Assembly (NCBI GenBank): GCA_001898835.1
Contig: MKVM01000003.1
Location: forward strand, 248,001 to 312,000
Direction: 5' to 3'
DNA length: 64,000 bases
Origin: Micrococcales bacterium 72-143
GTDB lineage: Bacteria > Actinomycetota > Actinomycetes > Actinomycetales > Microbacteriaceae
Positions 43,604-59,588 of this stretch are shown piece after piece. The number at the start of each line of letters is the position of its first letter. Position 1 is the first letter of the stretch. A model generated the notes under the pieces. It was not told where the DNA came from and made no database searches. It was given only the letters and a program-made list of their open reading frames with translations. A program made the position numbers and the translations under genes.

Positions 43604-45124
43604 CTAGCCGGCCATCGTGCTGACCGGGGCCTCGTAGTCGATGAATGCCGACAGGTCGACGAGACGCCCGTCGACGCGGAAGCGGTAGCGGCCCTCCTGG
43701 ACGACGCGCTCGGACCGCCGCAGCCAGGCCCGCAGCTCGTCGACCTCACCCGGGAGCAGCCACGCCACGGGGTCGGAGGTCGACTTGAAGCCGAGCACGG
43801 TCGCGACGTCCTCGATCAGCTGGCGCTGCGGCTCGTCGAGCAGGCTCCTGCGGCGCCGGAAGTAGACGACGTCCGGGTCGGTCTCGATCGCCGACCTCAG
43901 CCAGGCCCGGTGGATCGAGGCGAGGAAGGCGTTGCGCGCCCCCACCCCGGTGGGGTCACCCGGCCGCTCGGCGTTGTCCCAGAAGGCGGCGACATCCGGC
44001 CCCACCCGGATGCCGTCGAAGACGCCGAGCGACGGCACGATCGGCACGCCGCAGCCGAGGAGGTAGACGTCGTCGCCCACCGTCTCCCGGATGAGCGCGA
44101 CGGCATCGCGGTACGCCCGCTCCCGATGCACGGGGACGCTGCGCACCCCCTCCAGCGCGCCCGCGTACATGAAGTCGAGCTTGAGGTAGCTGAAGCCCCA
44201 GCCGACGACACGGGCGAACAGCTCGCGCAGGTGCGCGATCACCTCCGGATGCGTCGTGTCGAGCGCGTAGTACGGCCCGCCCCAGTTGTAGCCCGCCACG
44301 AGCGGAGCGCCGTCGTCGCCGTGGACGAGGAGCTCGGTGCGCTCCCGCGCGAATACGGAGTCGGGGAGCGCGATGAGCGGGGCGAGCCAGAGGCCGGCGC
44401 GGAATCCGGCATCCGTGATGGTGCGCGCGGTCGCCTCCATCCCCGACGGGAAGCGGTCGTTCGCCGTCCAGTCGCCGACCACCGGCTCCCATCCGTCGTC
44501 GAGCTGCACGACGTCGAACGGCATGCCCGCGAGGTCGGCCACCGTGGCGCGCACGCGGCCCTCGCTGAGCTCCTCGTAGAAGGAGTACCAGCTGCACCAG
44601 ACCCGGCCCGCGCGGGCGCCGCGGGAGCCGAGCCGTTCGGCGAGCAGCTGGGCGTAGCGCGCGAACACCTCGACCTCGGGGCCGCGGGCGAGGAACCACT
44701 CGGCGCCGTCCTCCTCGAGGGTGCCCCACAGGGTCGATGCGGTGGCACCCACCCTCGGGGCGCCCAGACCGAGCGCCCCGAGGAGGAGGATCTCGCCGTC
44801 CGGCAACGCGAGGGCACCGACCGCGGCCCCCGAGTGGGCGTGCGGGGTGTCGTTCTTCGCGTCGTCGGCCGTCAGCAGCCGTTCCGGGCTGTCGTAGACG
44901 CGCAGCGGGGCGTCGTCCTGGCGCCTCCATCCGGACGGGCTCCACGAGTTCCAGCCGTGGCGGTAGAACTCCGCATCCGCGAAGGGATGCAGCAGGGTCA
45001 CCGCCCCGGTCGGGATGAGGAGCTCCCGCTCGTCGATGGCGTGCGGCTCGCCGCTCGCGATGACGGGCAGGCTGACGTCCCCGAGGTGGACGACGCCGGA
45101 GAAGGTGGCGAGATCGGTGTGCAT
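43604..45124 (-). CDS. Alpha-galactosidase (GH36 family)
   Basis: A 506-residue GH36-type glycosidase without a signal peptide, so intracellular. The (beta/alpha)8 barrel contains WCSWYSFYEELSEGRV, FDVVQLDDGWEPVVGDW, the nucleophile Asp about 317 in YLKLDFMYAG and the acid/base Asp about 377 in RVGPDVAAFW. It releases alpha-linked galactose from imported oligosaccharides. It is the last gene of a transporter operon, 12 nt after the binding protein, with GGAAAG before the ATG. The context suggests alpha-galactosides, such as raffinose-type sugars or galactosaminogalactan fragments. Confidence 0.92.
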   Translation of the reverse strand: MHTDLATFSGVVHLGDVSLPVIASGEPHAIDERELLIPTGAVTLLHPFADAEFYRHGWNSWSPSGWRRQDDAPLRVYDSPERLLTADDAKNDTPHAHSGAAVGALALPDGEILLLGALGLGAPRVGATASTLWGTLEEDGAEWFLARGPEVEVFARYAQLLAERLGSRGARAGRVWCSWYSFYEELSEGRVRATVADLAGMPFDVVQLDDGWEPVVGDWTANDRFPSGMEATARTITDAGFRAGLWLAPLIALPDSVFARERTELLVHGDDGAPLVAGYNWGGPYYALDTTHPEVIAHLRELFARVVGWGFSYLKLDFMYAGALEGVRSVPVHRERAYRDAVALIRETVGDDVYLLGCGVPIVPSLGVFDGIRVGPDVAAFWDNAERPGDPTGVGARNAFLASIHRAWLRSAIETDPDVVYFRRRRSLLDEPQRQLIEDVATVLGFKSTSDPVAWLLPGEVDELRAWLRRSERVVQEGRYRFRVDGRLVDLSAFIDYEAPVSTMAG

Positions 45125-45136
45125 TCGTGCTTTCCG

Positions 45137-46486
45137 TTATTCGAAGAGGCCGTTGACCTTGGCGTTGGCGTCCGTGAGGGCGCTCTGGGCGTCATTCGTC
45201 CCGAGGGCGACGCTCTGGATGGCGTCCTGCACGATCTGCGACATCTCGGCACCGTGGTAGGTGATCGGGATGAGGAACGTGCCGTCCGGCTCCGCGGAGT
45301 AGGACAGGAACACGGATGCGTCGAGCCCGAGCTTCGCGCGGGCGGCGACCGACGCCTCCGAGGCCTCCTTGTTGGCCGGGAAGATGACGCCGGTGTCACC
45401 GACGACCTTCTGGCAGTCGGCGGAGGCGAGGTACTTGATCCACTCCCACGCCTGGTCCTTGTGCTTGCCGCCCGCGTACATCGCGTCGCTCAGGCCGTTG
45501 ATGGCCGACTTGCGGCCCTCGGGTCCGGCGGGGAGCGGCGCGAAGACGAAGTCGCTCGCCTTGTCCTTGAACATGAGCTGGTTGAAGGAGCCCATGCTCG
45601 TCATCGCTCCCGCCCCCGACTGCAGCACGTCGAGGCGGGAGAGGGTCGACTGGGTGTCGAAGCGGGGCGCGTAGCCCTTCTCGGCGAGCGAGGCGATCCA
45701 GTCGATCGTCTCCACGAGCTTCGGCGAGTCGTAGTTGAACTTCGTGCCGAACGGGTTCACGTCGGAGTAGGTGAAGCCGTTGGACTGGGCGAGGTTGCCC
45801 CACAGGTTCTGACCCTGCGAGCCGTCCGCCCACTCCGGCAGGAAGCCGTAGACCGCGACGTTGTTCTTGTCGAAGCCGGCCTCGTCGCCGTGCTTGCCGG
45901 CCTTGTCGACCGTCAGCTTCGCGATCACCTGCTCGAAGGTGCCCCCGTCGTCCGGGTTCCAGGTGAGGTCCTGCAGGGTGGCCTCGTCGATGCCGGCGTC
46001 CGCCGCATCCTGCTTGTTGATGACGAGGCCGATCGTGTCCCAGTCCTTCGGGAGGCCGTAGCGCGCGTCGCCGACCTGGTAGATCTCGGCGATGCCCGGC
46101 ACGTAGGAGTCGAAGTCGACGGCCTTCGGGTCCTTGTCGATGTAGGGCTGCAGGTCCTCGATCTGCTTGTCCTCGACGAACTGCGGGTAGTACGAGCCCT
46201 GGTTGACCCACACGTCGGGCGCGCTGCTCGCGGCGATCTGGGTCGCGAGGTTGGTCCAGTACTCACCCCAGCCGTACTGGCTGATCTTGATGCTGATGTC
46301 GGGGTTCGCCTTCGTGAAGTCGTCGGCGCACTGCTGGTAGGCGGGCAGCTGGGCGTCGTCCCAGAGCCAGTAGTTCAGTGTGACGGCGCCGTCGTCCCCG
46401 CCTGTCGCGGAGCATCCGGCCGTCGTCGCGAGGACGATCCCTGCGGCCGCGATCCCCGCGATCCGCATGGCTGTGTTCTTTCTCAT
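45137..46486 (-). CDS. ABC sugar transporter substrate-binding lipoprotein
   Basis: A 449-residue extracellular solute-binding protein of family 1. The lipobox is ATTAGCS near residue 25. The mature part begins with VTLNYWLWDDAQLPAYQQCA and has the usual YGLPKDWDTIGLVINKQ and EWIKYLASADCQK segments. It collects oligosaccharides for the two permeases upstream. AAAGGAG precedes the ATG at 46486; a GTG four codons earlier would sit on that site. It is unusual in lying after the permeases, next to the glycosidase. Confidence 0.93.
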   Translation of the reverse strand: MRKNTAMRIAGIAAAGIVLATTAGCSATGGDDGAVTLNYWLWDDAQLPAYQQCADDFTKANPDISIKISQYGWGEYWTNLATQIAASSAPDVWVNQGSYYPQFVEDKQIEDLQPYIDKDPKAVDFDSYVPGIAEIYQVGDARYGLPKDWDTIGLVINKQDAADAGIDEATLQDLTWNPDDGGTFEQVIAKLTVDKAGKHGDEAGFDKNNVAVYGFLPEWADGSQGQNLWGNLAQSNGFTYSDVNPFGTKFNYDSPKLVETIDWIASLAEKGYAPRFDTQSTLSRLDVLQSGAGAMTSMGSFNQLMFKDKASDFVFAPLPAGPEGRKSAINGLSDAMYAGGKHKDQAWEWIKYLASADCQKVVGDTGVIFPANKEASEASVAARAKLGLDASVFLSYSAEPDGTFLIPITYHGAEMSQIVQDAIQSVALGTNDAQSALTDANAKVNGLFE

Positions 46487-46522
46487 GGGTGCACGCACTC
46501 CTTTGTCGTGGTTGTGATGCCT

Positions 46523-47479
46523 TCACTTGATGCCCGTGAAGTTGAGCGACTCGACGATGCGTCGGCCGAGGAAAATGAGCAGCAGCGCCACCGGGATGAC
46601 CGACAGGGTGGAGGCGGCCATGAGGCCGGTCCAGTCGGGCTGGGTGTTGGGCGACTGCTGCAGGTAGACGCCGAGGGCGACGGTCACGGTGCGCACGGAC
46701 TCGTCTCGGCCGATGAGCAGGGGCCAGAGGTAGTCCTTCCACGCCCACACGACGGTGATGAGCGCGATGGTGATGAGCGGCCCCTGCGCCATCGGCAGCA
46801 CGACCCGCCAGAAGATGCGGATCTTGCCGGCGCCGTCGATCATCGCCGCCTCCTCGACGTCCTTCGGGATGTTGAGGAAGAACTGCCGCAGGAAGAACAG
46901 CGCGAAGGGCGTCATCAGCAGACTCGGCGCGACCATGCCCCACACGGTGTTGAGCAGCCCGAGGTCGCGCACGAGCACGAAGTTGGGCAGCAGGGTGAAG
47001 ATGCCCGGCACCATGAGGGCGGCGATGAGCACGCCGAACAGCCCCTCCCGGCCCCAGAACCGCAGCCGGGCGAAGGCGTAGCCGCCCATCGCGCAGAACA
47101 GCGTCTGGAAGAAGCCGATGAGGCTGCAGTAGACGATCGAGTTCCACACGTAGAGGGCGAAGTTGATGGATGCGCCGCTGCCGCCGGCGGCGCGCGTCTC
47201 CTCCGGCGAGAGCAGGCCGAGGACGCGCGCGAAGTTGATGACGGTCGGGTTGCTGGGCCACAGCCTGCCGGCGTCGCCGACGATGTCGGCGGCGGGCGTG
47301 AGCGCGGACTTCACCATCCAGTAGAAGGGGAAGATCGTGCCGACGAGCGCGATCACGAGGATCGTCCAGCCGATGACTCGGCCGGGGGTGATGCGCCGGC
47401 CGGCGCGTCGGCGGGCTCGTGCGGTGCGGGGCTCCCCGACGGTGACGGGGGGAACGGCGGTGGTCGTCATGGTCGTCAT
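46523..47479 (-). CDS. ABC sugar transporter permease (MalG/AraQ-type)
   Basis: A 318-residue inner-membrane permease with six helices. The cytoplasmic N-terminus is basic, and the conserved EAA loop is EEAAMIDGAGKIRIFWRVVLP (partly quoted: EEAAMIDGAGKIRIF), which contacts the ATPase. It ends in the typical ...GRRIVESLNFTGIK. Its partner is the next permease upstream. No ATPase gene is present in the operon, so a shared MsiK-like ATPase must serve. TAGGAG lies upstream of the ATG at 47479. Confidence 0.93.
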   Translation of the reverse strand: MTTMTTTAVPPVTVGEPRTARARRRAGRRITPGRVIGWTILVIALVGTIFPFYWMVKSALTPAADIVGDAGRLWPSNPTVINFARVLGLLSPEETRAAGGSGASINFALYVWNSIVYCSLIGFFQTLFCAMGGYAFARLRFWGREGLFGVLIAALMVPGIFTLLPNFVLVRDLGLLNTVWGMVAPSLLMTPFALFFLRQFFLNIPKDVEEAAMIDGAGKIRIFWRVVLPMAQGPLITIALITVVWAWKDYLWPLLIGRDESVRTVTVALGVYLQQSPNTQPDWTGLMAASTLSVIPVALLLIFLGRRIVESLNFTGIK

Positions 47480-47487
47480 GTCGTCTC

Positions 47488-48417
47488 CTAGGCGAGCTGC
47501 GACTCGGATGCCCGCAGCAGGCGGAGCTGGATGAAGGTGAGCACGCCCAGGATGAGGACGAGCAGGATGGCCATGGTGGCCGCGTAGCCCATGTGGAAGT
47601 ACGTGAACGCCTGTTGGTAGATGTAGTAATAGATGACCCGCGAGGCGTTGACGGGCCCGCCCTTGGTCGTGACGGCGACGGTGTCGAAGATCTGGAACGA
47701 GCCGATGAGCGACACGACGAGCACGAGGGCGAGGATCGGCTTCAGCAGCGGGAGCGTGATCCGGAAGAAGGTGCGGAGCTCGCCGGCGCCGTCGATCGCG
47801 GCCGCCTCGTAGGTGTCCTGCGGGATCTGGAGCATCCCCGCGTAGAACAGCAGAGCCGTGTACCCGACGAAGGCCCAGGTGTTGATGCCCGAGATGGTCG
47901 GGATGGCGAAGGCCGGGTTCGTGAAGAAGCCCACCTTGTCGAGCCCCATGGCGTCGAGCGTGCGGTTGACGAAGCCGAGGTTGGTGTCGAGCAGCCACAG
48001 CCACACGAGGCCGACGGTGACGTTGGGCACGAGCCAGGGCAGCAGGAGTGTGGTGCGCAGCACCACGGAGCGGGTGAGGCGGTGCATGAGCGTGGCGAGC
48101 ACGAGCGCGAGCACGGTCTGCGAGCCGACGTTGAGCACGACGTAGCAGAGCGTGACCCACATCGAGTTCCAGAACTCGGAGTCGGTGAGCACGGCGACGT
48201 AGTTCTCGAGCCCCACGAACTCGGGCTCCGCGAGCAGGCTGTAGTCGGTGAACGACCACCAGAGTCCGCGGATGGTGGGGTAGAGGTAGAAGACGGCGAA
48301 GCCGAGCAGCACGGGCGCGATGAAGAGGAGCGCGACCCGCCCGTCTCCCCGCGGGCGCGGCATCCGGGGGGCTGCGAGGCGGGACGGCGCCGTCCGCTGC
48401 AGTCCGAGCTGTGTCAT
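47488..48417 (-). CDS. ABC sugar transporter permease (MalF/UgpA-type)
   Basis: A 309-residue permease, first gene of the alpha-galactoside operon. Six helices are predicted; the EAA loop reads YEAAAIDGAGELRTFFRITLP (partly quoted: YEAAAIDGAGELRTFF), and IFDTVAVTTKGGPVNAS follows. The downstream permease starts 8 nt after its stop. The 164-nt gap before it is shared with the divergent ROK repressor gene, which probably controls both. Confidence 0.93.
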   Translation of the reverse strand: MTQLGLQRTAPSRLAAPRMPRPRGDGRVALLFIAPVLLGFAVFYLYPTIRGLWWSFTDYSLLAEPEFVGLENYVAVLTDSEFWNSMWVTLCYVVLNVGSQTVLALVLATLMHRLTRSVVLRTTLLLPWLVPNVTVGLVWLWLLDTNLGFVNRTLDAMGLDKVGFFTNPAFAIPTISGINTWAFVGYTALLFYAGMLQIPQDTYEAAAIDGAGELRTFFRITLPLLKPILALVLVVSLIGSFQIFDTVAVTTKGGPVNASRVIYYYIYQQAFTYFHMGYAATMAILLVLILGVLTFIQLRLLRASESQLA

Positions 48418-48534
48418 CGGGTGGCCTCTCCGCGCCTGACGGAGGGGACCGCGTCGGCGCGATGTTTCGGTTTCGGGGTCCACCGCCGACATGCCGTGGC
48501 GCGTCGTCGGTGAACCGCTAGAGTGGGTGAAGCG

Positions 48535-48563
48535 GGTTAATAATCCAACATGGCGATATAAAA
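48535..48563 (+). promoter_or_regulatory. AT-rich promoter/operator region of the ROK gene
   Basis: GGTTAATAATCC (48535-48546) is an imperfect dyad in otherwise GC-rich DNA, followed by TATAAA (48557-48562), a good -10 box for the ROK gene. A repressor on the AT-rich site would block both this promoter and the divergent transporter promoter. No second clear site was found. Confidence 0.4.
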
Positions 48564-48581
48564 CGCAAGAGGGGAGCGCGG

Positions 48582-49790
48582 ATGCCACGGGAAGCCATGG
48601 TCGACGCCGCGGGAGCCGCATCCATGGGCAGTCGATCGCTGCTGCGCCGGATGAACTCCCTCGGCGTCTTGCGCGCCATCATCAGCCGTCCGCAGACGCT
48701 CCGCGAGCTGACCACCTCATCCGGCCTCTCCCGCACCGCGATCGACGCCGTCGTCACCGACCTCACCGGCATGGGGTGGCTCGCCGCGTCCGAGAACGCC
48801 GCCGCGCGCGGTGTGGGGCGGCCCGCGATGACCTACCGGATCCCGCGCGGGCTCGGCTGCCTGCTGTCTGTCGACATCGGCGCGGGGCACGCCTTCGCGA
48901 TCGTCACCGACCTCACGGGCGAGGTGCTCGCCCAGCGCACGGGGCCCCTCGCGGAGGAGGACGACGCCGAGGCGCGCGTCGCCGCATCCCTTGAGGTATG
49001 CGACGCGGCCCTCGCCGACGCCGGCCTCGATCGCCGAGCACCGTGGGTCGTCACGGTCGGCTCCCCCGGCGCGATCAGCGACGGCCGCGTGCTGTTCTTC
49101 GGAGGCACGGGCATGCCCGGCTGGGTCGGCCTCGACCTGCGCACCCGCTTCGGCGCCGAGTTCGACGGGGCCGTTCTCGTGGAGGGCGATGTGCCGCTCG
49201 GCGCGCACGCCGAGCTCGCCTACGGTGCCGCCCGCGGCCACACGGACGTCGTGTACGTGCTGTGCGGTCGCCGCACCAGCGGCGCGGCGATCGTCGGCGG
49301 CCGGGTGCACCGCGGCATCAACGGGGCGGCCGGCATCGTGGGAGAGATGCCCGAGCTCAAGTGGGCCGAGCTCAACGAGTTGTACGGCCAGGACGTGCTC
49401 GCGACCCCGCGACCGAGCCGCGAGCAGATCTTCGAGCTCGCCCGCGTCGGCGATCCCGCCGCACGCGCCGCCGTCGACGAGTTCGCCGACGACCTCGCGG
49501 TGGGCTCCGCGGCGATGGTGCTCACCCTCGATCCGCAGCTGCTCGTGATCGGGGGCGGCAGCTCACCGAGCGCGGACGTGTTCCTGCCTCGCTTCGAGCA
49601 CACCCTCGCGCAGATCTGCCCCCTTCCGCCCGCCGTCGCGGCATCCCCTCTCGGCTCGGAGGCCGTGGCGATGGGCGGCATCAGCCTCGCCGCCCAGCAC
49701 CTCGACGCCGTGCTCGAGGACGCCGTGCGCGACCACCCCTCCTTCCCCGACCCCGCCGCCGCCCGCACCCTCCTGCGCACCGCCGCCTGA
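48582..49790 (+). CDS. ROK-family transcriptional repressor
   Basis: A 402-residue ROK regulator. A winged helix spans residues about 20-80 (SLLRRMNSLGVLRAIIS, LRELTTSSGLSRTAIDAVV). The ROK sugar-binding domain follows (LLSVDIGAGHAFAIVTDL, VTVGSPGAISDGRV, RGINGAAGIVGEM, and LVIGGGSSPSADVF). The zinc site, normally C-x-C-G-x2-GC-x-E, is not seen, so it may sense sugar without zinc. It is divergent from the alpha-galactoside transporter operon and is the likely local repressor. AGGGGAG is 5 nt before the ATG. Confidence 0.9.
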   Translation: MPREAMVDAAGAASMGSRSLLRRMNSLGVLRAIISRPQTLRELTTSSGLSRTAIDAVVTDLTGMGWLAASENAAARGVGRPAMTYRIPRGLGCLLSVDIGAGHAFAIVTDLTGEVLAQRTGPLAEEDDAEARVAASLEVCDAALADAGLDRRAPWVVTVGSPGAISDGRVLFFGGTGMPGWVGLDLRTRFGAEFDGAVLVEGDVPLGAHAELAYGAARGHTDVVYVLCGRRTSGAAIVGGRVHRGINGAAGIVGEMPELKWAELNELYGQDVLATPRPSREQIFELARVGDPAARAAVDEFADDLAVGSAAMVLTLDPQLLVIGGGSSPSADVFLPRFEHTLAQICPLPPAVAASPLGSEAVAMGGISLAAQHLDAVLEDAVRDHPSFPDPAAARTLLRTAA

Positions 49791-49798
49791 GCCTTCAC

Positions 49799-49862
49799 CC
49801 GCGAGTAGTCGTATCTCGGCCCCAAACGAGCCGGATAGGACGGGAAATACGACTACTCGCGG
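49799..49862. repeat. Long hairpin element H9
   Basis: Arms 49799-49821 and 49841-49862 pair over about 19 of 22 positions. They share GCGAGTAGTCGTATCTCGG with H8. It lies between the convergent ROK and hydrolase genes. Confidence 0.9.
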
Positions 49863-49880
49863 GGGGTGGGGTGAGGGTGC

Positions 49881-51611
49881 TCAGCCCGTCACCCGGACGA
49901 GACGGGCGAAGCGGACGACCAGGTCATCGGCGCCCGAGGCGAGGGAGATGCGGAGGCGGGCGGAAGCGCCGGCGGATGCGGCGAGGGCGCCGTCGGGGAG
50001 CGCGATCGTCGCCGTGCGCCAGGCGCCCGATCCCGTGCGCTCGACCGCGGCCGAGGAGCCCGCACCTGTGTCGATCGCGAACGCACCCGAGCCTGCGTCG
50101 AGGAACGTCACCTTGAGCACGACCCGCCCGGATGCGGCGGCCGCGAACCGCGGGTCCACGTCGAGCGCGAACCCCGTGTCGCCCGCCGCGACATCCGTCG
50201 AGAGTCCCTCGTGGGCGACGCCGTTGTCCTCCTCGAACACGTGCTCGTGGACGTCGGCATCCGTGCGGTGGGCGACCGAGCCGGGCTCGTCCACCTGCAC
50301 GAGCCAACGCTCGAGGTTGCGCACCCACGGTCGGTCGGGCCACGAGGCGGGGTCGTCGAACGGACCGGACTCGGGGTCGGCCCAGTAGCTGTCCTCCGCG
50401 TCGCGGAACGCGGCCCAGGCGTCCGCCGAGGTGTCGGCCCTCTGCCCGAGCGAGAGCCGCAGCCAGTCCCACTGCTCCGGATACTCCGCCATGTAGGACG
50501 GCCCGGGCACGACGTACATCCAGTTGACGCGCAGCTGCAGCGCCTTGAGGTTCGCCTGCCGCACCGCGTAGTACACGTCGTCGGTCTGATATCCGCAGTC
50601 GGTGAAGCACTCGTTCTCGGTCGCCACGACGTAGCGCCCCGAGTGGATCGGCAGCGACTCGTCGACCGTCATGTGCCCGTCGGGCTGCACGTGCGAGCCG
50701 TAGGCGGGCGCCTCGCTCAGGTGGAAGTTCGACAGCTCGGTGATGCCCGTGCGGATGCCCATGCCGGCGTCGACCGCCTGGCGCGCGAGCAGGTCGTCGG
50801 CGGCGCCGAACGGCCCCCACGGATAGTCCTCGCCGGTGAAGACGAGCTTGTCGGCGTGCTCGCCGAAGATCGCCACGAGGTCGCTCCACGCGTGCCCGTA
50901 CCAGGCGAGGTAGCTCTTCTCGTCGAGCTCGCCCGCGTCGGCCGCCGCGGTCACCATCTCGTAGTCGTACTCGGCCCAGGTGAAGGCGCCGGGCACGTAC
51001 ACGAACCTCAGCCGCGGGTCGGAGGCCAGCCCCAGGTCGACGAACAGCATCCGGTAGGTGTCCATGAGGTGGCCCCACACGCACTCGTTCCAGATCGGCA
51101 GGTGCCGCTGGCCGTCGTAGTCGGGTCCGTAGCTCGAGACGCCGCACTCCTCGGCCACCCAGGCTGGCGCCCAGTCCTCGCCGCTCGCGAAGATGCGCAT
51201 CCAGAAGTCGCCCGGCTGCCGCAGCTGCGCGTCGAGGGCGTCGAAGCTCATGCCCTGCGCGTCGCCCGCGGAGGTGCGGTCGATGCGCTTCTCGGCGGTG
51301 GGCCGCAGCTGCCGCCAGCTGAGGTCGACCGAGCGCACGGCGACGAGCTCGGATGCGTCGGCCTCCTCGGAGAAGTACCCCGAGTTCGGCGCGGGCCGCA
51401 CCCAGCCAGGCAGCGACCAGTCGTCGCCGTCGGCGACGGTCACGCCGGACGGGCCGGCGTCGACGAAGGACGTGCGGGGCCCGACGTCGAGGTCGATCCC
51501 GTCGCCTCCCGCGGTGGGCAGCGGCTCGGGGGCGCTCACCGTGCACCCCGCGAGCGCGAGCACGGCCGCCGCCGCGGCCACGATCCGGAGTCGGCGGACA
51601 CGCTCATGCAT
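49881..51611 (-). CDS. Lipoprotein with TIM-barrel glycoside-hydrolase-like domain
   Basis: A 576-residue lipoprotein (lipobox LALAGC near 22). The first 420 residues look like a (beta/alpha)8 glycosidase: GWVRPAPNSGYFSEEAD, DLSWRQLRPTAEKRI, FWMRIFASGEDWAPAWVAEE, LRFVYVPGAFTWAEYDY, and VVATENECFTDCGYQTDD with a candidate catalytic Glu. The last 130 residues are a beta-rich, binding-type domain (GRVVLKVTFLDAGSGAF). I cannot name a GH family. As the last gene of the transporter-kinase operon, overlapping the previous gene by 8 nt, it probably trims surface oligosaccharides before uptake. Confidence 0.75.
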   Translation of the reverse strand: MHERVRRLRIVAAAAAVLALAGCTVSAPEPLPTAGGDGIDLDVGPRTSFVDAGPSGVTVADGDDWSLPGWVRPAPNSGYFSEEADASELVAVRSVDLSWRQLRPTAEKRIDRTSAGDAQGMSFDALDAQLRQPGDFWMRIFASGEDWAPAWVAEECGVSSYGPDYDGQRHLPIWNECVWGHLMDTYRMLFVDLGLASDPRLRFVYVPGAFTWAEYDYEMVTAAADAGELDEKSYLAWYGHAWSDLVAIFGEHADKLVFTGEDYPWGPFGAADDLLARQAVDAGMGIRTGITELSNFHLSEAPAYGSHVQPDGHMTVDESLPIHSGRYVVATENECFTDCGYQTDDVYYAVRQANLKALQLRVNWMYVVPGPSYMAEYPEQWDWLRLSLGQRADTSADAWAAFRDAEDSYWADPESGPFDDPASWPDRPWVRNLERWLVQVDEPGSVAHRTDADVHEHVFEEDNGVAHEGLSTDVAAGDTGFALDVDPRFAAAASGRVVLKVTFLDAGSGAFAIDTGAGSSAAVERTGSGAWRTATIALPDGALAASAGASARLRISLASGADDLVVRFARLVRVTG

Positions 51612-52533: not shown

Positions 52534-53459
52534 GCCGTCAGCTCCGCCTCGACCTCGGCGCGCGTCGCCTGCCCGCCCGTGCCGCCGGCACCCCGCGTCG
52601 AGAGCGAGCCCGCGACGGCGGCCCAGCGCACCGCCTCCGCGAGGGGACGGCCGTCGAGCCAGGCCGCGAGGAATCCGGCGTCGAAGCTGTCTCCGGCGCC
52701 CGTCGTGTCGACGACGTCGAGGGTGAGGCCCGGGGCGCGCACGATGCCCCCGTCGGGGGTCACCGCGAAGCCGCCTGCGGCGCCGTCCTTGACCGCGACG
52801 ACCGGTCCGCGCGCGGCGAGCAGAGCGGCCGCCTCGACGGCATCGGCGGGTTCGTCGCCGAGTGCGCGAGCGAGCGCGACGGCTTCCTGGGCGTTCGGCA
52901 GCAGCAGGTCGAGGTGCGGCAGGCACTCCGCAACCCCCGCCCAGCTCTCGGCCGGATCCCAGTTGGTGTCGAGGCTCGTCGTCAGGCCTCGCTCGCGCAC
53001 TCGGGTCAGCACGCCGGGCAGCTCGCGCGCGAGGCCCGGCACGAGGAACAGGGATGCGAGGTGGAGGTGGGTCGCGTGCGCCGCGGCCGCGAGCACCTCG
53101 TCCGCCGTCAACCCCGCGAGCGCCCCCGTGAGGGTGAGGATCGCGCGGTCGTCGGGCGCGGAGAGGATCACGGAGACGCCCGTCGGTTCCTCGACCACCG
53201 CGAGCGCCGAGGTGTCGACCCCCTCCGCATCCAGCAGCTCGCGGGTGCGCGTCCCGAAGACGTCTCCGCCGACGCGGGCGACGATCGCGGTCTCGACGCC
53301 CAGGCGCGCGAGCCCCGCCGCGCAGATCCCCGCGCTCGAGCCGAGCACGAGGTCGGCACCGTCGAGCAGCTGCTCCGCCTGGCCGAAGCGCGGCACGACG
53401 TCGCCGCGCAGCACGAGGTCGAGGTTGGCGTCCCCTGCCACCAGCACGCGTGCCGTCAT
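52530..53459 (-). CDS. PfkB-family (ribokinase-like) sugar kinase
   Basis: A 309-residue ribokinase-like kinase. Visible are VAGDANLDLVLRGDVV near the start, LGSSAGICAAGLARLGVETAIV, TSLDTNWDPAESW, LLLPNAQEAVALA and the catalytic DTTGAGDSFDAGFLAAWL near 250. It belongs to a different branch from its neighbour, so the pair may act on two successive sugars or positions. In this operon it could phosphorylate the imported amino sugar. It overlaps the permease stop (ATGA). Confidence 0.88.
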   Translation of the reverse strand: MTARVLVAGDANLDLVLRGDVVPRFGQAEQLLDGADLVLGSSAGICAAGLARLGVETAIVARVGGDVFGTRTRELLDAEGVDTSALAVVEEPTGVSVILSAPDDRAILTLTGALAGLTADEVLAAAAHATHLHLASLFLVPGLARELPGVLTRVRERGLTTSLDTNWDPAESWAGVAECLPHLDLLLPNAQEAVALARALGDEPADAVEAAALLAARGPVVAVKDGAAGGFAVTPDGGIVRAPGLTLDVVDTTGAGDSFDAGFLAAWLDGRPLAEAVRWAAVAGSLSTRGAGGTGGQATRAEVEAELTA

Positions 53460-54325
53460 CCCTTGAGCCCCGACATCGTCATCGTCTGCACGAACTGCTT
53501 CTGCGCGAACAGGAAGAACAGCACGAGCGGTGCCGTCGCGATGACGTTACCCGCCATGAGCAGGTCCCACTGGGTGCGGCGGGTGCCCTGGAAGTTCGCG
53601 ATGCCGAGCTGCACCGTGAACGCGTTCTCGTCGTTGATCGCGATGAGCGGCCAGACGAGGTCGTTCCAGGAGCTCAGCAGAGTGAAGATCGCGAGCGTCG
53701 TCATGGCAGGGCGCGCGAGCGGCAGCACGACCCGCAGGAAGATCTCCAGCCGGTTCGCTCCGTCGATCGCCGCGGCCTCCTCGATCTCGATCGGGATCGA
53801 GAGGAAGAACTGGCGCATGAGGAAGATGCCGAACGCGGAGGCGAGCCACGGCACGAACGCGGCCGCGAGCGTGTTCACGATCCCGAGCTTCGAGAACATG
53901 ATGTAGGTGGGGATCATGAGCAGCTGGGTCGGGATCATGATCGTCGCGAGGATCAGGAAGAAGCCCGCCGTGCGGCCGCGGAACTGCAGCCGTGCGAAGC
54001 CATAGCCGGCGAGCGAGCACAGCACCACGTGGGAGACGATCGAGATGACCGCCACGATCGTCGAGTTGGCGAGCCAGCGCAGGATGTCGGTATCGGTGAG
54101 CAGGCCCACGAAGCCGTCGAGGGTGATCCGCGAGGGGAAGAACGGCGGCGGGAACTTCACGAGATCCGACCGCGGCGAGAGCGACGCCAGCAGCATCTGC
54201 GCGAACGGGATGAAGAACAGCAGCGCGATCGGCGCGAGCACGAGATGCCACAGGCTGAACCTGCGCTTCGGGTGCCGGGCGGGCGCGTCCGTGCGCGGCG
54301 CGCGGGTGAGCGAGGTGAGCGCCAT
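53456..54325 (-). CDS. ABC sugar transporter permease (MalG-type)
   Basis: A 289-residue permease with six predicted helices and a basic cytoplasmic start. The EAA loop is IEEAAAIDGANRLEIFLRVV, and the protein ends FVQTMTMSGLKG. It works with the permease encoded immediately before it (1-nt overlap) and the binding protein at the head of the operon. No ATPase is encoded nearby. Confidence 0.94.
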   Translation of the reverse strand: MALTSLTRAPRTDAPARHPKRRFSLWHLVLAPIALLFFIPFAQMLLASLSPRSDLVKFPPPFFPSRITLDGFVGLLTDTDILRWLANSTIVAVISIVSHVVLCSLAGYGFARLQFRGRTAGFFLILATIMIPTQLLMIPTYIMFSKLGIVNTLAAAFVPWLASAFGIFLMRQFFLSIPIEIEEAAAIDGANRLEIFLRVVLPLARPAMTTLAIFTLLSSWNDLVWPLIAINDENAFTVQLGIANFQGTRRTQWDLLMAGNVIATAPLVLFFLFAQKQFVQTMTMSGLKG

Positions 54326-55290
54326 CAGAACGCCTCCATGTTCCGGCGACGGGCGTAGAGCACCATGCCGACCGTGATGAGCAGGGTCACCGCGAACAGG
54401 ATGTACGCGGCCGCGGAGCCGGTGCCGAAGTCGAGGGCCTTGAAGGCCTTCTCCCACAGGTAGTAGACGATCGTCTTGGTGGCATCCAGCGGGCCGCCCC
54501 GCGTCGTCGTGTAGACGAGGTCGAACAGCTGCAGCGCGCCGATCACCTGCCAGATGGTGACGAAGACGGTGACCGGCCCGAGCTCGGGCCACACCACCCG
54601 CCAGAAGGTCTGCCAGCGGTTCGCACCATCGATGCGCGCGGCCTCCAGCAGCTCGTTCGGGATGTCCTGCAACGCGGCGAGGTAGATGACCGTCGTGAAG
54701 GCGGCCTGCCCCCAGAGCGACATGATCGCGATCACGAGCATCGCCTGGCTGGGGTCCTCGAGCCACCCCTGGGCCGGCAGCCCGATCGAGCGGAGCACGT
54801 TGTTCGCGAGGCCGTACTGCGGGCTGAACAGGTACGTCGAGAGGATGCCGGTGGCGGCAGCGGACGCCACGAACGGCACGAAGATGGCCGTGCGGTAGAG
54901 GCCGATGAGCGGGATGTCGCGGTTGAGGGCGACCGCGAGGAACAGGCCGAGCAGAACCGACGCCGGCACGAACAGCACGACGTAGAGGCCCGTGTGGCTG
55001 ACGGCCGCCCAGAACTCCTCGTCGCTCATGAGGCGCGTGTAGTTGGCGCCGCCCACGAACTTCGGCGGCGCGAAGCCGTTCCACTTCTGGAGCGAGAGCA
55101 GGAACGCCCACGCCGCCGGGAAGATCGAGAGACCCAGGATGATGACCATCGCGGGGGCGACGAACGCCCACCCGGTCAGGGTGCTGAGCCCGCGACGGCG
55201 GCGGGCACCGGCCCGGGTCTCGGGCGCGGAGGGGCGGGAGGCGCGCGGCGCGCCCGCGTGCGTGGGTTTCTTCTCGGTCACAGTCGTCAT
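54325..55290 (-). CDS. ABC sugar transporter permease (MalF-type)
   Basis: A 321-residue permease. A Lys/Arg/Pro-rich cytoplasmic head of 38 residues precedes six helices; the EAA loop is LLEAARIDGANRWQTFWRVV, followed by LFDLVYTTTRGGPLDATKT. GGAG is 8 nt before the ATG. It lies 25 nt after the SIS gene in the same operon. Confidence 0.94.
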   Translation of the reverse strand: MTTVTEKKPTHAGAPRASRPSAPETRAGARRRRGLSTLTGWAFVAPAMVIILGLSIFPAAWAFLLSLQKWNGFAPPKFVGGANYTRLMSDEEFWAAVSHTGLYVVLFVPASVLLGLFLAVALNRDIPLIGLYRTAIFVPFVASAAATGILSTYLFSPQYGLANNVLRSIGLPAQGWLEDPSQAMLVIAIMSLWGQAAFTTVIYLAALQDIPNELLEAARIDGANRWQTFWRVVWPELGPVTVFVTIWQVIGALQLFDLVYTTTRGGPLDATKTIVYYLWEKAFKALDFGTGSAAAYILFAVTLLITVGMVLYARRRNMEAF

Positions 55291-55315
55291 CGTCGGCTCC
55301 TCGACCACTCTCGAT

Positions 55316-56194
55316 TCAGGGAAGCACGATGGAGCGGGTCAGATGGCGGGGGTTGTCAGGGTCGAGCCCGCGCCCGACGGCGGTGCGCACCGCGAGCAGC
55401 TGGGCGAGCGCGAGCTGCACGAGCGGGTCGGCCTCCGACTGCACGACGACCGCACCCGTCGCCTCGACATCGCGCGCCAGGTCGTCGTCGACCGCACCGA
55501 GGAACCACACGAGTGAGCCCGGATGCGCGACGGCGAGCGGGCCGTGACGGTAGTCGAGCAGCGGATACGACTCCGCCCACGCCTGCGCCGCCTCGCGGAT
55601 CTTGAGCGCCGCCTCCTGTGCGAGACCGTAGGTCCAGCCGCGCCCCAGGTAGACGACGTGGTCGAAGCCCTCGGGCGCCTCGGGCGCGCCCGCCGCGAGG
55701 GCCGCCTCCGCCTCGGCCGGCAGCGCCGAGACGTCCTCGCCGAGCGCCGCCCGGGCGAGGAAGAGGAACGTCGTCGGGAAGCGGGTCTGCACCACCGAGC
55801 GCTCGTCGGCGAAGTCGAGCAGCAGCACCTCGTCGGCGAGCTCCGCGCACGGCGAGTCGGCCACCCCGGTGACGACGACCTTGCGCACGCCCTCCGGCAC
55901 GCCGCGCAGGGCTTCGATGACCTCGGTCGTCGTGCCGGAGCGGGTGATCCCGATGATGGCGTCGTACGGACGCCACGGCCGCGGCTCCGAGGCGTAGGCG
56001 GCATCCGTCTCCCCGAAGCCCGCCTGCTCGCGCAGCAGGGCGAACGACTCGGCGACGAACGCGGAGGTGCCGCATCCGATCACGAGCACGCGCTCGCCCG
56101 GACGGGTCAGCATCCGCACGGCGTCGGGGAGGAGGTCGAGCGAGCGGCGCCAGATGTCCGGCTGGCTCTCGATCTCGAGGGAGGTGATGTTCAT
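55316..56194 (-). CDS. SIS-domain sugar isomerase/deaminase (AgaS/GlmS-like)
   Basis: A 292-residue protein with two SIS domains. The first has LVIGCGTSAFVAESFALL and GITRSGTTTEVIEAL, the phosphosugar-binding loops; the second has VYLGRGWTYGLAQEAALKIRE, and then a late Glu/His segment (YPLLDYRHGPLAV) like the active site of GlmS and AgaS. AgaS converts galactosamine-6-phosphate to tagatose-6-phosphate and ammonia. That role would fit the LacC-like kinase downstream, but frlB-type or glucosamine-type activity cannot be excluded. A hairpin separates it from the binding-protein gene. Confidence 0.85.
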   Translation of the reverse strand: MNITSLEIESQPDIWRRSLDLLPDAVRMLTRPGERVLVIGCGTSAFVAESFALLREQAGFGETDAAYASEPRPWRPYDAIIGITRSGTTTEVIEALRGVPEGVRKVVVTGVADSPCAELADEVLLLDFADERSVVQTRFPTTFLFLARAALGEDVSALPAEAEAALAAGAPEAPEGFDHVVYLGRGWTYGLAQEAALKIREAAQAWAESYPLLDYRHGPLAVAHPGSLVWFLGAVDDDLARDVEATGAVVVQSEADPLVQLALAQLLAVRTAVGRGLDPDNPRHLTRSIVLP

Positions 56195-56223
56195 GGGATG
56201 CTGCGCTCCTGCTGCAGGGTGGG

Positions 56224-56252
56224 GGATGGGACGGCCGGCGGCCGTCCCATCC
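56224..56252. terminator. Intercistronic attenuator hairpin
   Basis: A perfect 13-bp stem (56224-56236 with 56240-56252) with a 3-nt loop, between the binding-protein gene and the rest of its operon. Such hairpins raise the level of binding protein relative to permeases by stopping or protecting part of the transcript. Confidence 0.75.
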
Positions 56253-56260
56253 GGGTGGAT

Positions 56261-57565
56261 CTAGTTGCCGGCGAGGGCGTCGTCGGCCTTCTTGGCGGCG
56301 TCCTCGAGGGCCTCCCGGGGGTCGCCCTGGCCCTGGAGCACCTTCGAGATCGCCGAGCCGATCGCCTCCGAGAGGCCGACATAGCCGCTGACCGTGGGGC
56401 GCGAGTTGATCGCGTTGGCGCTGTTCGCCGCCATGATGTCGAGCCCGGGGAGGGCCTTGACCTGAGCCTGGAACTCGGGGGTGTCGATCTCGCTCTCCCG
56501 CAGGGGCAGGTTGCCGAACTCGACGTTCCAGCGCAGGTCCTGTTCGGGAGCCGTGAGCCATTTCATGAGCTCGAACGACCAGTAGTTCTCGTTGACGTCT
56601 CCGGTGTCGAACATCGCCCAGATGTCGGGGCCCGACACGGTCTGGTGGTCGCCGTCCGTTCCCGGCAGGACCGTCACGCCGTACTGCGTCTTCGCGGTGT
56701 TGAGGTCGTAGAGCTGCCAGGGGCCCGAGGTCATCATGCCGATGCGGTCGGCGGCGAACAGCTGCGCGAACTTCGTGTCCGTCTGGTCGAGGTAGATGCT
56801 CTTGTCCTCGACGGCCATCTGCCGCAGGAACTCGAGCGCGTCGACGCCGGCGTCGCTCGCGAAGGCCGCACTCTTCTTGTCGTCCGTGAGGATCTCGCCG
56901 CCGTTCTGCCACAGGTGCGGCCAGAACTGCCAGGTGGTCTCCTCGGAGCCCGAGACGGAGTACGCGTAGCCGTAGGTCTCGGTAGAGGGGTCGGTGAGCT
57001 TCTTCGCCGCGGCCCGGAAGTCGTCCCACGTCCAGTCCTCGGTGGGGTAGGCGACACCGGCCGCATCGAACACGGTCTTGTTGTAGATGAGGGACAGGTT
57101 GTCGACGAGGGCCGGGAAGCCGATGATCTTGTCTCCCGTGGGCTGCACGGTCGCGCGCGCCGCGGCGGGGAACTCGTCCCAGCGGAGGTCGGGGTCGTCG
57201 ACCTTGTCGCGCAGGTCGACGGTGCGGCCCGAGGTCTCGAGCTCGCTCGCCCAGGAGCCGAACGAGTAGGAGATGTTGGGGTAGGTGTCGCTCGCGAAGC
57301 CGGCGGAGAGCTTCTGGAGCAGCTCCTCGGTGGAGGAGGCACCCGAGGAGATGTCGATGGTGACGTTCGGGTGGTCCTTCTCGAACTCGTCGGCGAGCCC
57401 TTCGAGGATCTTCTCGGCCTCGTCGGACTGCCCGGTCCACCAGGTGAGGGTGACGTCGGCCTTCGGGTCGAGCTCGGTGGCCTTGTCCGCGCCCGTGCAG
57501 CCGGCGAGGGCGAGGGCGGTCGTGGTGGCCACGGCGAGGCCGAGCCAGGTGATGCGGCGTTGCAT
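56261..57565 (-). CDS. ABC sugar transporter substrate-binding lipoprotein
   Basis: A 434-residue family 1 binding protein and first gene of the seven-gene operon. The lipobox is ALALAGC near 23. VTLTWWTGQSDEAEKILEGL starts the mature fold, with IIGFPALVDNLSLIYNKTVF and GMMTSGPWQLYDLN further on. AGAGGA precedes the ATG at 57565. The ligand is unknown; the context suggests amino-sugar or galactose oligosaccharides. Direct and inverted AATGA motifs in its upstream region may bind a regulator. Confidence 0.93.
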   Translation of the reverse strand: MQRRITWLGLAVATTTALALAGCTGADKATELDPKADVTLTWWTGQSDEAEKILEGLADEFEKDHPNVTIDISSGASSTEELLQKLSAGFASDTYPNISYSFGSWASELETSGRTVDLRDKVDDPDLRWDEFPAAARATVQPTGDKIIGFPALVDNLSLIYNKTVFDAAGVAYPTEDWTWDDFRAAAKKLTDPSTETYGYAYSVSGSEETTWQFWPHLWQNGGEILTDDKKSAAFASDAGVDALEFLRQMAVEDKSIYLDQTDTKFAQLFAADRIGMMTSGPWQLYDLNTAKTQYGVTVLPGTDGDHQTVSGPDIWAMFDTGDVNENYWSFELMKWLTAPEQDLRWNVEFGNLPLRESEIDTPEFQAQVKALPGLDIMAANSANAINSRPTVSGYVGLSEAIGSAISKVLQGQGDPREALEDAAKKADDALAGN

Positions 57566-57627
57566 GTGCTGTCCTCTCGGTCGGGTGGTTCCCATGGTGA
57601 CCTGAGAATGAGCGTTTTCCAACACAG

Positions 57628-57645
57628 AATGACGATTCGATCATT
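57628..57645. promoter_or_regulatory. AATGA/TCATT dyad upstream of the binding-protein gene
   Basis: AATGA (57628-57632) and TCATT (57641-57645) are separated by 8 bases; a further GAATGA lies at 57606-57611. The region is AT-richer than its surroundings and lies between two divergent genes. Confidence 0.4.
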
Positions 57646-57661
57646 TTGAGTGCACAGTTGG

Positions 57662-57691
57662 TTCAACCCGGATGTGGTTCGGCCCTACCCT
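57662..57691 (+). promoter_or_regulatory. Probable promoter of the spherulin-4 gene
   Basis: TTCAAC (57662-57667) and TACCCT (57686-57691) with an 18-base spacer place the transcription start near 57698, about 67 nt before the ATG. Confidence 0.45.
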
Positions 57692-57700
57692 GGCGCCGTC

Positions 57701-57716
57701 ACCCTCGAACGAGGGT
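57701..57716. promoter_or_regulatory. Perfect palindrome in the spherulin-4 leader
   Basis: ACCCTCG-AA-CGAGGGT is a 16-bp perfect dyad directly after the predicted transcription start, the usual place for a repressor site. Confidence 0.55.
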
Positions 57717-57764
57717 CGACAGATCCGTCGCCGAACCGCTCGGCGCCCCTCGAAAGGAACCACC

Positions 57765-59588
57765 ATGACCAGATCGAGAATCGCGGGGGCGGTGATCGCG
57801 ACGACGGCTGTCGCGCTCGTGTCGGCCGCGCTCACGGCGACGCCGGCCGTCGCCACCACGCCGGACCTCGGGCAGAAGGTCGCCGTCCCCGCCTACATCC
57901 CGCCGTCCGACACCACCTCGTGGGCGAGCCTGACCTCCGCCCACGCGCAGCTCGACTTCATCGTCGTCAACGTCGCCAACGGCCCCGACTCGGCCGTCAA
58001 CGCCACCTGGAAGACGATCATCGACACCGCGCACGCGGCCGGCACGAAGGTGCTCGGCTACATCGACAGCGGCTACTTCGGTGCATCCGTGCCCGCCCGC
58101 ACGACGGTCCTCGGCGACACCGACGCGACCTCGTGGCTCGTGCAGGCCCAGCAGGACGCGGACCGCTGGTATCAGTTCTACGGCAGCTCGATCGACGGCA
58201 TCTTCGTCGACGACGGCCTCAACACCTGCGGTCCGACGACGGGCAGCAACGCCTACGTCGACCTCTACGAGCAGCTCGACGACTACATCCACGGCAACCA
58301 CCCGGGCTCGCTGACCGTCGTCAACCCGGGGATCACCGTGCCCGAGTGCTACGAGGACACGGCGGACATCATCGTGAGCTTCGAGGGCAGCTACGCCGAC
58401 TACGTCAACCCCTCGCCCGAGCGGGCGACCGCGCAGTGGCAGCTCGACGGCGATCCGAACAAGTTCTGGCACATCGTCTACGACGTGCCGGAGGCGCAGA
58501 TCGCCGCCGTCACGGCCGCCAGCAAGTCCAACAACGCCGGGTACCTGTACCTGACCCCGGACGTGCTCGCCAACCCGTACGACACGGCGCCCACCGGGAG
58601 CTACTGGACGAGCGAGCTCGCCGCGACCGCCGCGACGAGCACCACCGTGCCGTCGACCCCCGCGCGACCGAGCGCGACCGACGTGTACAGCACGGGCCTC
58701 GACCTGTCGTGGACCTCGTCCTCGTCATCGAACATCGTCGGCTACGAGGTCTACCGCGACGGCCTGCACATCGGGTCGGTCGGCAACTACTACCCCGCCT
58801 CCAGCGAGTTCACCGACGTCGGCCTCACCCCGGCGACGAGCTACAGCTACACGATCGCCGCGCGGCACCTGAACGGCAAGCTCTCGGCGCAGAGCACCGC
58901 GCGGAGCGTCACAACGGATGTCGTGTGGGGCAACGCCCCCGGGGCGCCCGGCTCGCTCGCCGGAAGCGACCTCACCGCCAACGGCATCCGGCTCGGCTGG
59001 ACCGCGTCGTCGGTCACGAACGACCCGGTCGCGTACTACGACGTCTACGCGAACGGCGTTCGCCGTGCGACGGTCGGCGCGAGCGTCACGAGCGTGCACC
59101 TCGGATTCCTCGACCCGGGCACGGCGTACAGCTTCACCGTGCGCGCCCGCAGCACCTCGAACGCGCAGTCCGCGGCCGCGACCACCGTGTCCGTGACGAC
59201 ACCGAACCCGGCGCCGATCGAGAACGCGAGCGTCGTGTTCGGAGCCACGACGACGACCTTCCAGGCGCAGTACAACCTCACGTTCAACTTCCAGAACGTG
59301 TTCATCGACGCCGACGGCAACGCGGCGACGGGCTACCCGGTCGGCGGCATCGGGGCCGACTTCCTCATCCAGAACGGCGGCTTCTTCCAGCACGCGACGG
59401 GTGCGGCCACGTGGGACTGGAGCCCCGTGACGCTGGGGTCGGGGCCGCTCGTGTCGAACGTCGGCGGGCTCGTGACGTGGGAGGTGCCGTCGAGCACCTT
59501 CGGTGCCGCCACGAGCCTGAGCGTCGTGTTCAACGGCTCGGGCAGCTCGCCGGACGAGACGCTCGCGCCGATCGTCGCGACGCGCTGA
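57765..59588 (+). CDS. Secreted spherulin-4 family protein (GH135-like) with two FN3 domains
   Basis: A 607-residue exported protein. A signal peptide (about 1-31, ending TPAVATT) is followed by a spherulin-4 barrel (about 35-290): AVPAYIPPSDTTSW, LDFIVVNVANGPDS, GTKVLGYIDSGYFGAS, IDGIFVDDGLNTCG with the acidic pair, and LTVVNPGITVPECYED. Two fibronectin type III domains (about 298-382 and 388-478) and a C-terminal beta-rich domain (FIDADGNAATGYPVGG) follow. Fungal Sph3 of this family cleaves galactosaminogalactan. GAAAGGA lies before the ATG. It is divergent from the amino-sugar-type transporter operon, which suggests it supplies that importer. Confidence 0.86.
   Translation: MTRSRIAGAVIATTAVALVSAALTATPAVATTPDLGQKVAVPAYIPPSDTTSWASLTSAHAQLDFIVVNVANGPDSAVNATWKTIIDTAHAAGTKVLGYIDSGYFGASVPARTTVLGDTDATSWLVQAQQDADRWYQFYGSSIDGIFVDDGLNTCGPTTGSNAYVDLYEQLDDYIHGNHPGSLTVVNPGITVPECYEDTADIIVSFEGSYADYVNPSPERATAQWQLDGDPNKFWHIVYDVPEAQIAAVTAASKSNNAGYLYLTPDVLANPYDTAPTGSYWTSELAATAATSTTVPSTPARPSATDVYSTGLDLSWTSSSSSNIVGYEVYRDGLHIGSVGNYYPASSEFTDVGLTPATSYSYTIAARHLNGKLSAQSTARSVTTDVVWGNAPGAPGSLAGSDLTANGIRLGWTASSVTNDPVAYYDVYANGVRRATVGASVTSVHLGFLDPGTAYSFTVRARSTSNAQSAAATTVSVTTPNPAPIENASVVFGATTTTFQAQYNLTFNFQNVFIDADGNAATGYPVGGIGADFLIQNGGFFQHATGAATWDWSPVTLGSGPLVSNVGGLVTWEVPSSTFGAATSLSVVFNGSGSSPDETLAPIVATR

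Follow-up and report, generated by a model that had tools for sequence, protein, structure and literature searches.

The window analyzed here, a stretch of 64,000 nucleotides from Micrococcales bacterium 72-143 (Microbacteriaceae; contig MKVM01000003.1, positions 248,001 to 312,000), contains near its end a gene for a spherulin-4 protein of the type of glycoside hydrolase (GH) family 135, together with sugar importers and genes for the predicted catabolism of an amino sugar. We read this system as a regulon of the Aga type that is combined with interchangeable endo-galactosaminidases. On balance, it seems to be an amino-sugar regulon adapted to a foreign polymer of α-1,4-linked N-acetylgalactosamine (GalNAc) or galactosamine (GalN), i.e., fungal galactosaminogalactan (GAG), bacterial Pel, or both. 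The original prediction, made from the window alone, was that the locus serves the utilization of fungal GAG, and every gene that it named was found where it had been placed. The core of that prediction, i.e., extracellular cleavage, import, and conversion of GalN-6-phosphate to tagatose-1,6-bisphosphate, appears right, and comparison with related sequences gives it more support than the window by itself could provide. Specificity for the fungal polymer is no more than a possibility, as bacterial Pel, too, is attacked by the Aspergillus enzyme Sph3 and by a hydrolase with DUF4832 (PMC12345266).

Gene maps were continued beyond window position 64000 in the bacterium's own genome (G000; 3.33 Mb in 6 contigs). 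The main comparison sample comprised 249 genomes of the family Microbacteriaceae, and a wider sample 396 genomes of the order. In the 249 genomes, the SIS protein of the locus was counted at E 1e-40 and perm3b, a permease of importer 3, at E 1e-95; DUF4832 matches were called strong at E below 1e-40, and weaker ones (8 of 26 genomes) were excluded from linkage counts. Locus architectures were tabulated for 46 genomes, 44 of which have SIS at the threshold used; these genomes are related, so their counts are not independent. The table leaves out L060, repeat genomes, and the SIS-free loci of G148, G149, G085, G244, G199, and G002 that carry LIPO, the lipoprotein discussed below; of the locus displays, L141 and L142 were covered in part and L110-L112 left out. 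Open reading frame (ORF) calling was simple and picked antisense frames at times, and start codons, the signal peptide of spherulin-4 and the lipobox of LIPO were assigned by eye.

Gene content, conservation, linkage, and the catalytic residues of spherulin-4 are established. The protein scores 126.7 bits with PF12138 (curated cut-off 30.2), and a profile of six such sequences matches the Sph3 structures 5c5g (6e-8) and 5d6t (6.9e-8) and nothing else at E up to 1. Asp149 and Glu207 are invariant in all six and align with FFDE and VVFEA of Sph3, whose catalytic Asp we take to be Asp166. Together with the signal peptide, this bears out the earlier description as a secreted GH135-like protein. 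The catalytic residues of Sph3 are printed as Asp196/Glu222 in PMC12054363. The GC content at third codon positions (0.965) resembles that of neighboring genes. The gene is divergent from a leftward operon that encodes a solute-binding protein (SBP), the SIS protein, permeases perm1 and perm2, a PfkB kinase, a LacC/FruK-like kinase, and LIPO, and after which a GH36/ROK/importer unit follows, whilst importer 3 (60155-63244) lies on its opposite side. Since the genes for a PF04909 amidohydrolase, a class II aldolase, a GH4 enzyme, and a DeoR regulator run past the window end, the aldolase that seemed to be missing does exist, within 8.3 kb of spherulin-4. Of the earlier remark that the window holds neither a deacetylase nor an aldolase, the second half stands, but the amidohydrolase, a candidate deacetylase, starts at 63496.

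The strongest argument for a polymer substrate, albeit an indirect one, is the slot beside importer 3 that spherulin-4 shares with DUF4832 proteins. PF12138 occurs in 6 of the 249 genomes, as a full-length protein in three (the own genome, G052, and G225) and as short proteins of ~280-300 amino acids elsewhere in the genome in the other three. All three full-length genes are located ≤5 kb from perm3b and ≤25 kb from SIS, and the junction between spherulin-4 and importer 3 recurs in G052 (65% identity) and G225 (47%). The order sample adds G310 and G350, both with SIS in a full locus of type B (see below); in G350, the spherulin-4 gene and a DeoR-type gene point away from each other. Importer 3, represented by perm3b, is found in 34 of the 249 genomes, with SIS ≤25 kb away in 26. 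Strong DUF4832 matches are present in 18 genomes (26 at E 0.001), in 12 of them ≤5 kb from perm3b, and a gene for DUF4832, spherulin-4, or LIPO lies within that distance in 17 of the 34 importer 3 genomes. Purified SIR_1591 of Streptococcus intermedius, which consists of a TIM barrel and DUF4832, disperses GalNAc-rich Pel aggregates, and so do Sph3 and PelA, whereas Ega3 does not (PMC12345266). In streptococci and clostridia, DUF4832 genes directly adjoin pel operons (PMC7112168). Since one slot next to an importer and, mostly, a GalNAc-type operon is used by two enzyme families linked to Pel or GAG, an α-1,4-linked GalNAc/GalN polymer is the substrate to which this arrangement points.

The catabolic genes are consistent with such a substrate. 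The SIS protein has GlmD (NF041128; 93.9 bits, cut-off 580) and GlmS (86.4 bits, below its cut-off) as best NCBIfam models, scores 44.3 bits with the AgaS family (TIGR02815; cut-off 529.2), matches the PH0510 structure 2dec at 1.6e-26, and contains the motif (D/E)(Y/F)RHGP in 25 of 25 sequences. Described earlier as AgaS/GlmS-like, it stays under the cut-offs of both AgaS and GlmD, and its predicted deamination of GalN-6-phosphate rests on its operon partners rather than on its residues. Both predicted PfkB kinases are present, but the second, described as LacC-like, scores better with the 1-phosphofructokinase group TIGR03168 (200.6 bits, cut-off 216.4) than with LacC (TIGR01231; 77.4 bits, cut-off 409.55), in both cases under the cut-off. 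The aldolase exceeds the cut-off of PF01116 (250.3 bits) and reaches 195.2 bits for the tagatose-type model TIGR01858 (cut-off 443.55) vs. 195.1 for the fructose-type model TIGR01859, whilst the GH4 protein passes the cut-off of the α-galactosidase subfamily PRK15076 (526.1 vs. 486). The regulator has AgaR (NF040755) as best model at 194.6 bits (cut-off 260), closely followed by haloarchaeal GlpR (191.6). A search of the genome, as proposed with the original prediction, found besides the adjoining aldolase a NagA homolog above its cut-off at G000:C3:48514-49578, ~198 kb before the window start. Thus, the genome holds candidates for the deacetylase, the deaminase, the C6 kinase, and the aldolase; a NagA-type gene within the operon is found only in some sister loci.

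Among the 44 SIS loci, 30 are of type A, with GH4, and seven of type B, with a Gfo/Idh/MocA protein, whilst none has both and seven have neither. PfkB is the only kinase of the two kinds in 23 loci and a ROK kinase in nine; both occur in one and neither in 11. In L101/L113, L144, L146, L148, L162, and L163, the SIS, importer 3, DeoR, and aldolase genes are accompanied by a ROK kinase and a NagA-type deacetylase, and with the LacC-like kinase that these sister loci also include, this amounts to a full GalNAc route. In type B, the NagA-type gene adjoins SIS in G052, G031, G023, and G134, and also in G310 and G350; the L113 deacetylase, the start of which is truncated, reaches 208.3 bits for TIGR00221 (cut-off 225.65). 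The G167 locus is a hybrid, in which type A genes are combined with a ROK kinase, a NagA-type gene, and GH36. Judging from this pattern of kinase replacement, PfkB seems to do the work of the ROK kinase. That the PF04909 amidohydrolase likewise substitutes for NagA is less certain: it is present in 23 of the 44 SIS loci and absent from all five genomes with an L113-type NagA, but its exclusion with any NagA is not significant when the NagA genes of nearby N-acetylglucosamine (GlcNAc) clusters are counted (p 0.20). For the Gfo/Idh/MocA protein, the name GH109 did not occur among its model matches or the best 60 of its 75 PDB matches, considered by name only.

In the scheme that we infer, in every reaction, in the order of kinase and deacetylase, and in the substrate, spherulin-4 would cut the polymer extracellularly, perhaps assisted by the surface lipoprotein, and the oligosaccharides would be taken up by importers 3 and 1. 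Intracellularly, GH4, plus GH36 where galactose is present, would release monomers, which the PfkB kinase would phosphorylate at C6 and either the amidohydrolase or the genomic NagA would deacetylate. The SIS protein would convert GalN-6-phosphate to tagatose-6-phosphate and ammonia, and the LacC-like kinase would produce tagatose-1,6-bisphosphate, to be split by the class II aldolase. The whole set may be controlled by the AgaR-like DeoR repressor. As the bacterium's genome yielded no match to PelG (in the control, 1 of 14 genomes did), the polymer is probably foreign to the host and not its own Pel. The GH4 and GH36 genes suggest that galactose is part of it, as in GAG, and secreted GH64 or GH3 proteins encoded near LIPO in Actinomadura would fit fungal walls. 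The characterized DUF4832 substrate, on the other hand, is Pel.

Several observations weigh against this scheme. The SIS protein scores far too low for either AgaS or GlmD, all sequences that extend to the C-terminal Lys of GlmD (23 of 25) have Arg in its place, and in single-sequence blastp FrlB scores slightly above AgaS (43.5 vs. 41.6 bits). The model scores of the aldolase do not tell the tagatose- from the fructose-bisphosphate type. Spherulin-4 was not found in any of the four other genus-mates sampled, and in G310 and G350, which belong to another family, it is located on a different contig than SIS, in G310 near the contig end. The spherulin-4 upstream regions of L101 and L102 have no significant motif in common with the SIS promoters. 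The G225 and G224 loci have no NagA-type gene at the threshold used, and the LIPO locus of Microbacterium oleivorans (L047) has no SIS, PfkB, or LacC matches. An association of GH114 with SIS was not found either: 26 of the 249 genomes have both (p 0.77), in none of them ≤25 kb apart, and GH114 linkage was therefore dropped as general support. Finally, 59 of the 76 SIS genomes have neither PF12138 nor a strong DUF4832 match (hand count), which means that the catabolic core is not restricted to a polymer of the Pel/GAG type.

This last count leads to the alternative that survives best, although we consider it unlikely, i.e., a general GalNAc/GalN pathway that is fed by many glycans, such as cell-wall or capsular polysaccharides and glycoproteins, with spherulin-4 and DUF4832 as optional additions and a main substrate other than Pel or GAG. 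SIS is indeed present in 76 of the 249 genomes as compared with 6 for PF12138 and 18 for strong DUF4832, and the G205, G025, and G076 loci contain the core without a recognized endo-enzyme in the stretch displayed. The presence of DUF4832, spherulin-4, or LIPO next to perm3b in half of the importer 3 genomes argues instead for a dedicated polymer branch. Considerably less probable is a route for non-amino α-galactosides, in which GH4 and GH36 would free galactose, PfkB would form galactose-6-phosphate, and the SIS protein would act as a plain aldose-ketose isomerase to yield tagatose-6-phosphate. It would agree with the α-galactosidase scores of GH4 and GH36 and with the replacement of the GlmD Lys, but SIS is matched best, among models and structures alike, by amino-sugar-6-phosphate deaminases and GlmS, its orthologs share operons with NagA-type deacetylases, and Sph3 and SIR_1591 act on a GalNAc-rich polymer (PMC12345266).

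That spherulin-4 is an accidental neighbor with another role, e.g., in biofilm dispersal or antifungal defense, is very unlikely; its absence from the four genus-mates and from the 18 displayed LIPO loci would fit, but the repetition of its junction with importer 3 in G052 and G225 and the use of the same slot by DUF4832 would not. A route for Amadori products, with PfkB as FrlD-like kinase and SIS as FrlB-like deglycase, is barely credible: both kinases match E. coli FrlD (58.9 and 53.5 bits), and the blastp scores do not separate FrlB from AgaS, but the profile of 25 SIS sequences does (E. coli AgaS 44.3 vs. FrlB 22.2 bits), no FrlB is found among the molecule names of the 28 PDB matches of the SIS protein, and the glycosidases, deacetylases, and aldolase would have no evident role.

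The proposed galactosaminoglycan regulon resembles the E. coli aga/gam regulon (AgaR, AgaA, AgaS, KbaY) in its DeoR regulator (35% identity to AgaR), SIS protein, class II aldolase (37% to KbaY), and predicted intermediates. It differs in that the SIS protein is only 23% identical to AgaS, import by an ATP-binding cassette (ABC) system and a cytoplasmic kinase take the place of the phosphotransferase system of E. coli, and glycosidases and a secreted endo-enzyme are added. In the Shewanella-type GalNAc pathway, non-PTS uptake is followed by kinase, deacetylase, and AgaS. The type B sister loci have the separate kinase and non-PTS uptake in common with it, but contain an ABC importer, a Gfo/Idh/MocA protein, and the endo-enzyme slot. 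Compared with Aspergillus Sph3, which is of the same family and has the same catalytic Asp and Glu, the window protein is bacterial and secreted, has FN3 and C-terminal domains, and is encoded beside catabolic rather than biosynthetic genes. Similarly, SIR_1591 adjoins pel biosynthesis genes, whereas its DUF4832/DUF4874 counterparts, found in the slot of spherulin-4 next to perm3b in 12 genomes, adjoin an importer, mostly with GalNAc catabolism. The endo-galactosaminidases of families GH114, GH166, and GH191 (PMC12054363) act on the polymer class proposed here. A second candidate galactosaminidase of the own genome is a secreted GH114 protein that is encoded away from the locus and carries GH114_assoc and FN3 domains (G000:C1:1429600-1430298; L106:9544-11205, minus strand).

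A bacterial locus for the utilization of GAG or Pel was not among the literature matches listed for the terms used in open-license papers. A feeding locus might account for the presence in bacteria of several enzymes that attack a galactosamine-rich biofilm polymer of fungi and some bacteria. It would name organisms and enzymes that digest a polymer protecting Aspergillus and Pel-making biofilms, point to a sink for the galactosamine of soil microbial biofilms (PMC11014887), and predict functions for DUF4832/DUF4874, one PF04909 clade, and one unannotated protein family. A bolder possibility, which we put forward tentatively, is that galactosaminoglycan loci are widespread in actinobacteria, with a fixed core for import and catabolism and an exchangeable endo-enzyme slot (GH135, DUF4832, possibly GH114), that LIPO is the first member of a novel glycoside hydrolase family active on this polymer, and that the PF04909 amidohydrolase represents a novel type of GalNAc(-6-phosphate) deacetylase.

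Features of the locus in window coordinates (window position = L034 position + 56999)
Feature	Position	Strand	Basis
GH36 α-galactosidase, adjacent separately regulated unit	43604..45124	-	391.3 bits to 6lcj
SBP, adjacent GH36 unit	45137..46498	-	Pfam scan
Permease, adjacent GH36 unit	46523..47395	-	Pfam scan
Permease, adjacent GH36 unit	47488..48621	-	Pfam scan
ROK-family regulator, adjacent GH36 unit	48582..49790	+	PF00480 83 bits
LIPO, lipoprotein without family match, candidate surface hydrolase	49881..51611	-	Lipobox LAGC by eye
LacC/FruK-like kinase, predicted tagatose-6-phosphate kinase	51604..52533	-	TIGR03168 200.6 bits, TIGR01231 77.4
PfkB sugar kinase, predicted GalN/GalNAc 6-kinase	52530..53459	-	PF00294 154.1 bits
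Importer 1 permease perm2	53456..54325	-	ORF; homologs adjoin perm1 in relatives
Importer 1 permease perm1	54325..55308	-	NCBIfam UgpA/GlcT-like
SIS protein, predicted GalN-6-phosphate deaminase/isomerase	55316..56194	-	PF01380
Importer 1 solute-binding lipoprotein	56261..57565	-	Weak NCBIfam sugar-binding-protein matches; conserved in type A loci
Operator-like ATGAKCG half-site pair	57608..57644	.	Between SBP and spherulin-4
Spherulin-4 (GH135-type) predicted secreted hydrolase, FN3 domains, C-terminal domain	57765..59588	+	PF12138
Small protein (145 aa), from spherulin-4/importer 3 interval	59662-60099	-	No family match above cut-off
Importer 3 permease perm3b, adjoins spherulin-4/DUF4832 slot	60155..61006	-	34/249 genomes
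Importer 3 permease perm3a	60999..61943	-	L034 gene map
Importer 3 solute-binding protein SBP3	61940..63244	-	Homolog in 13/44 SIS loci
PF04909 amidohydrolase, candidate deacetylase	63496-64578 (window holds 63496..64000)	+	PF04909 75.1 bits
Class II ketose-bisphosphate aldolase, past window end	64835-65686		PF01116 250.3 bits
GH4 α-galactosidase-type enzyme, past window end	65683-67059		PRK15076 526.1 bits
AgaR-like DeoR regulator, past window end	67088-67897		NF040755 194.6 bits

LIPO had been called glycosidase-like, a label that is not backed by any family match in Pfam, NCBIfam, PHROGs, or the PDB sequences; we discounted profile matches to PDB entries at E 0.05-0.4 as random. A weak AlphaFold model (pLDDT 65.7, pTM 0.63), for which GH5-CBM6 proteins are the best Foldseek matches (TM 0.17-0.27), hints at a TIM-barrel-like fold plus a β-sandwich. 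A profile comparison of low effective depth gave no kinship with DUF4832 or spherulin-4. LIPO is found in 16 of the 249 family genomes, all of which have SIS (vs. 76 of 249 overall; p 1.7e-9, kinship ignored); it lies ≤25 kb from SIS in nine and ≤5 kb from perm3b in two of the 16. In G021, G148, G149, G085, G244, G002, and G199, the distance to SIS exceeds 25 kb, SIS being located elsewhere in the genome, and in G149, LIPO is ~10 kb from importer 3 and DUF4832.

In the genome collection, LIPO matches 21 named loci, from Protaetiibacter mangrovi, Microbacterium, Homoserinibacter, Schumannella, Okibacterium, Actinomadura, Nanopelagicales, Kineosporiaceae, and a metagenome-assembled genome of Microbacteriaceae. 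GH4 lies within the retrieved stretch in 13 of the 18 that were displayed, with importer 1 and mostly SIS, the aldolase, the amidohydrolase, and the kinases; spherulin-4 was not found in these 18. L060 has LIPO without the rest of the locus, and a GH114 protein adjoins LIPO in M. oleivorans L047 only. Near LIPO in Actinomadura L056 and L057, secreted proteins with F5/8 type C and GH64 or GH3 domains are encoded. A GPNVxxFD motif is located near the N-terminus of three proteins of P. mangrovi and Actinomadura without Pfam match (L037:14898-17705, minus; L055:2159-3889, plus; L057:120-1856, plus).

The GH36/ROK/importer block, which had been included in the proposed system, looks separately regulated. 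It forms a unit with a ROK regulator of its own, and a match to its SBP is found only in the window genome and in G228 (P. mangrovi) among the 46 tabulated genomes, but GH36 homologs are located inside the SIS loci L141 (62%) and L143 (56%). For the regulon itself, the operator sequences provide modest evidence. A second ATGAKCG half-site pair lies between GH4 and DeoR (G000:C3:315042-315069); the pattern occurs 14 times genome-wide and twice in the locus (binomial p 0.003, position being considered for these two). Half-sites of this type are found upstream of GH4 in most relatives compared, some genomes being repeated.

In nine sister loci (L021, L022, L031, L042, L136, L147, L149, L150, and L151), genes resembling glyA, folD, or purU by eye flank the SIS locus, perhaps as an insertion hotspot or a link to one-carbon metabolism. 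A GlcNAc-type cluster (NagA-like, NagB-like, ROK, GH3-like, and importer genes, assigned by eye) adjoins the locus in L038, L039, and L042. The Schumannella locus is flanked by genes for GH92 (L031:10644-14495, minus) and GH38 (L042:11866-14934, plus) proteins.

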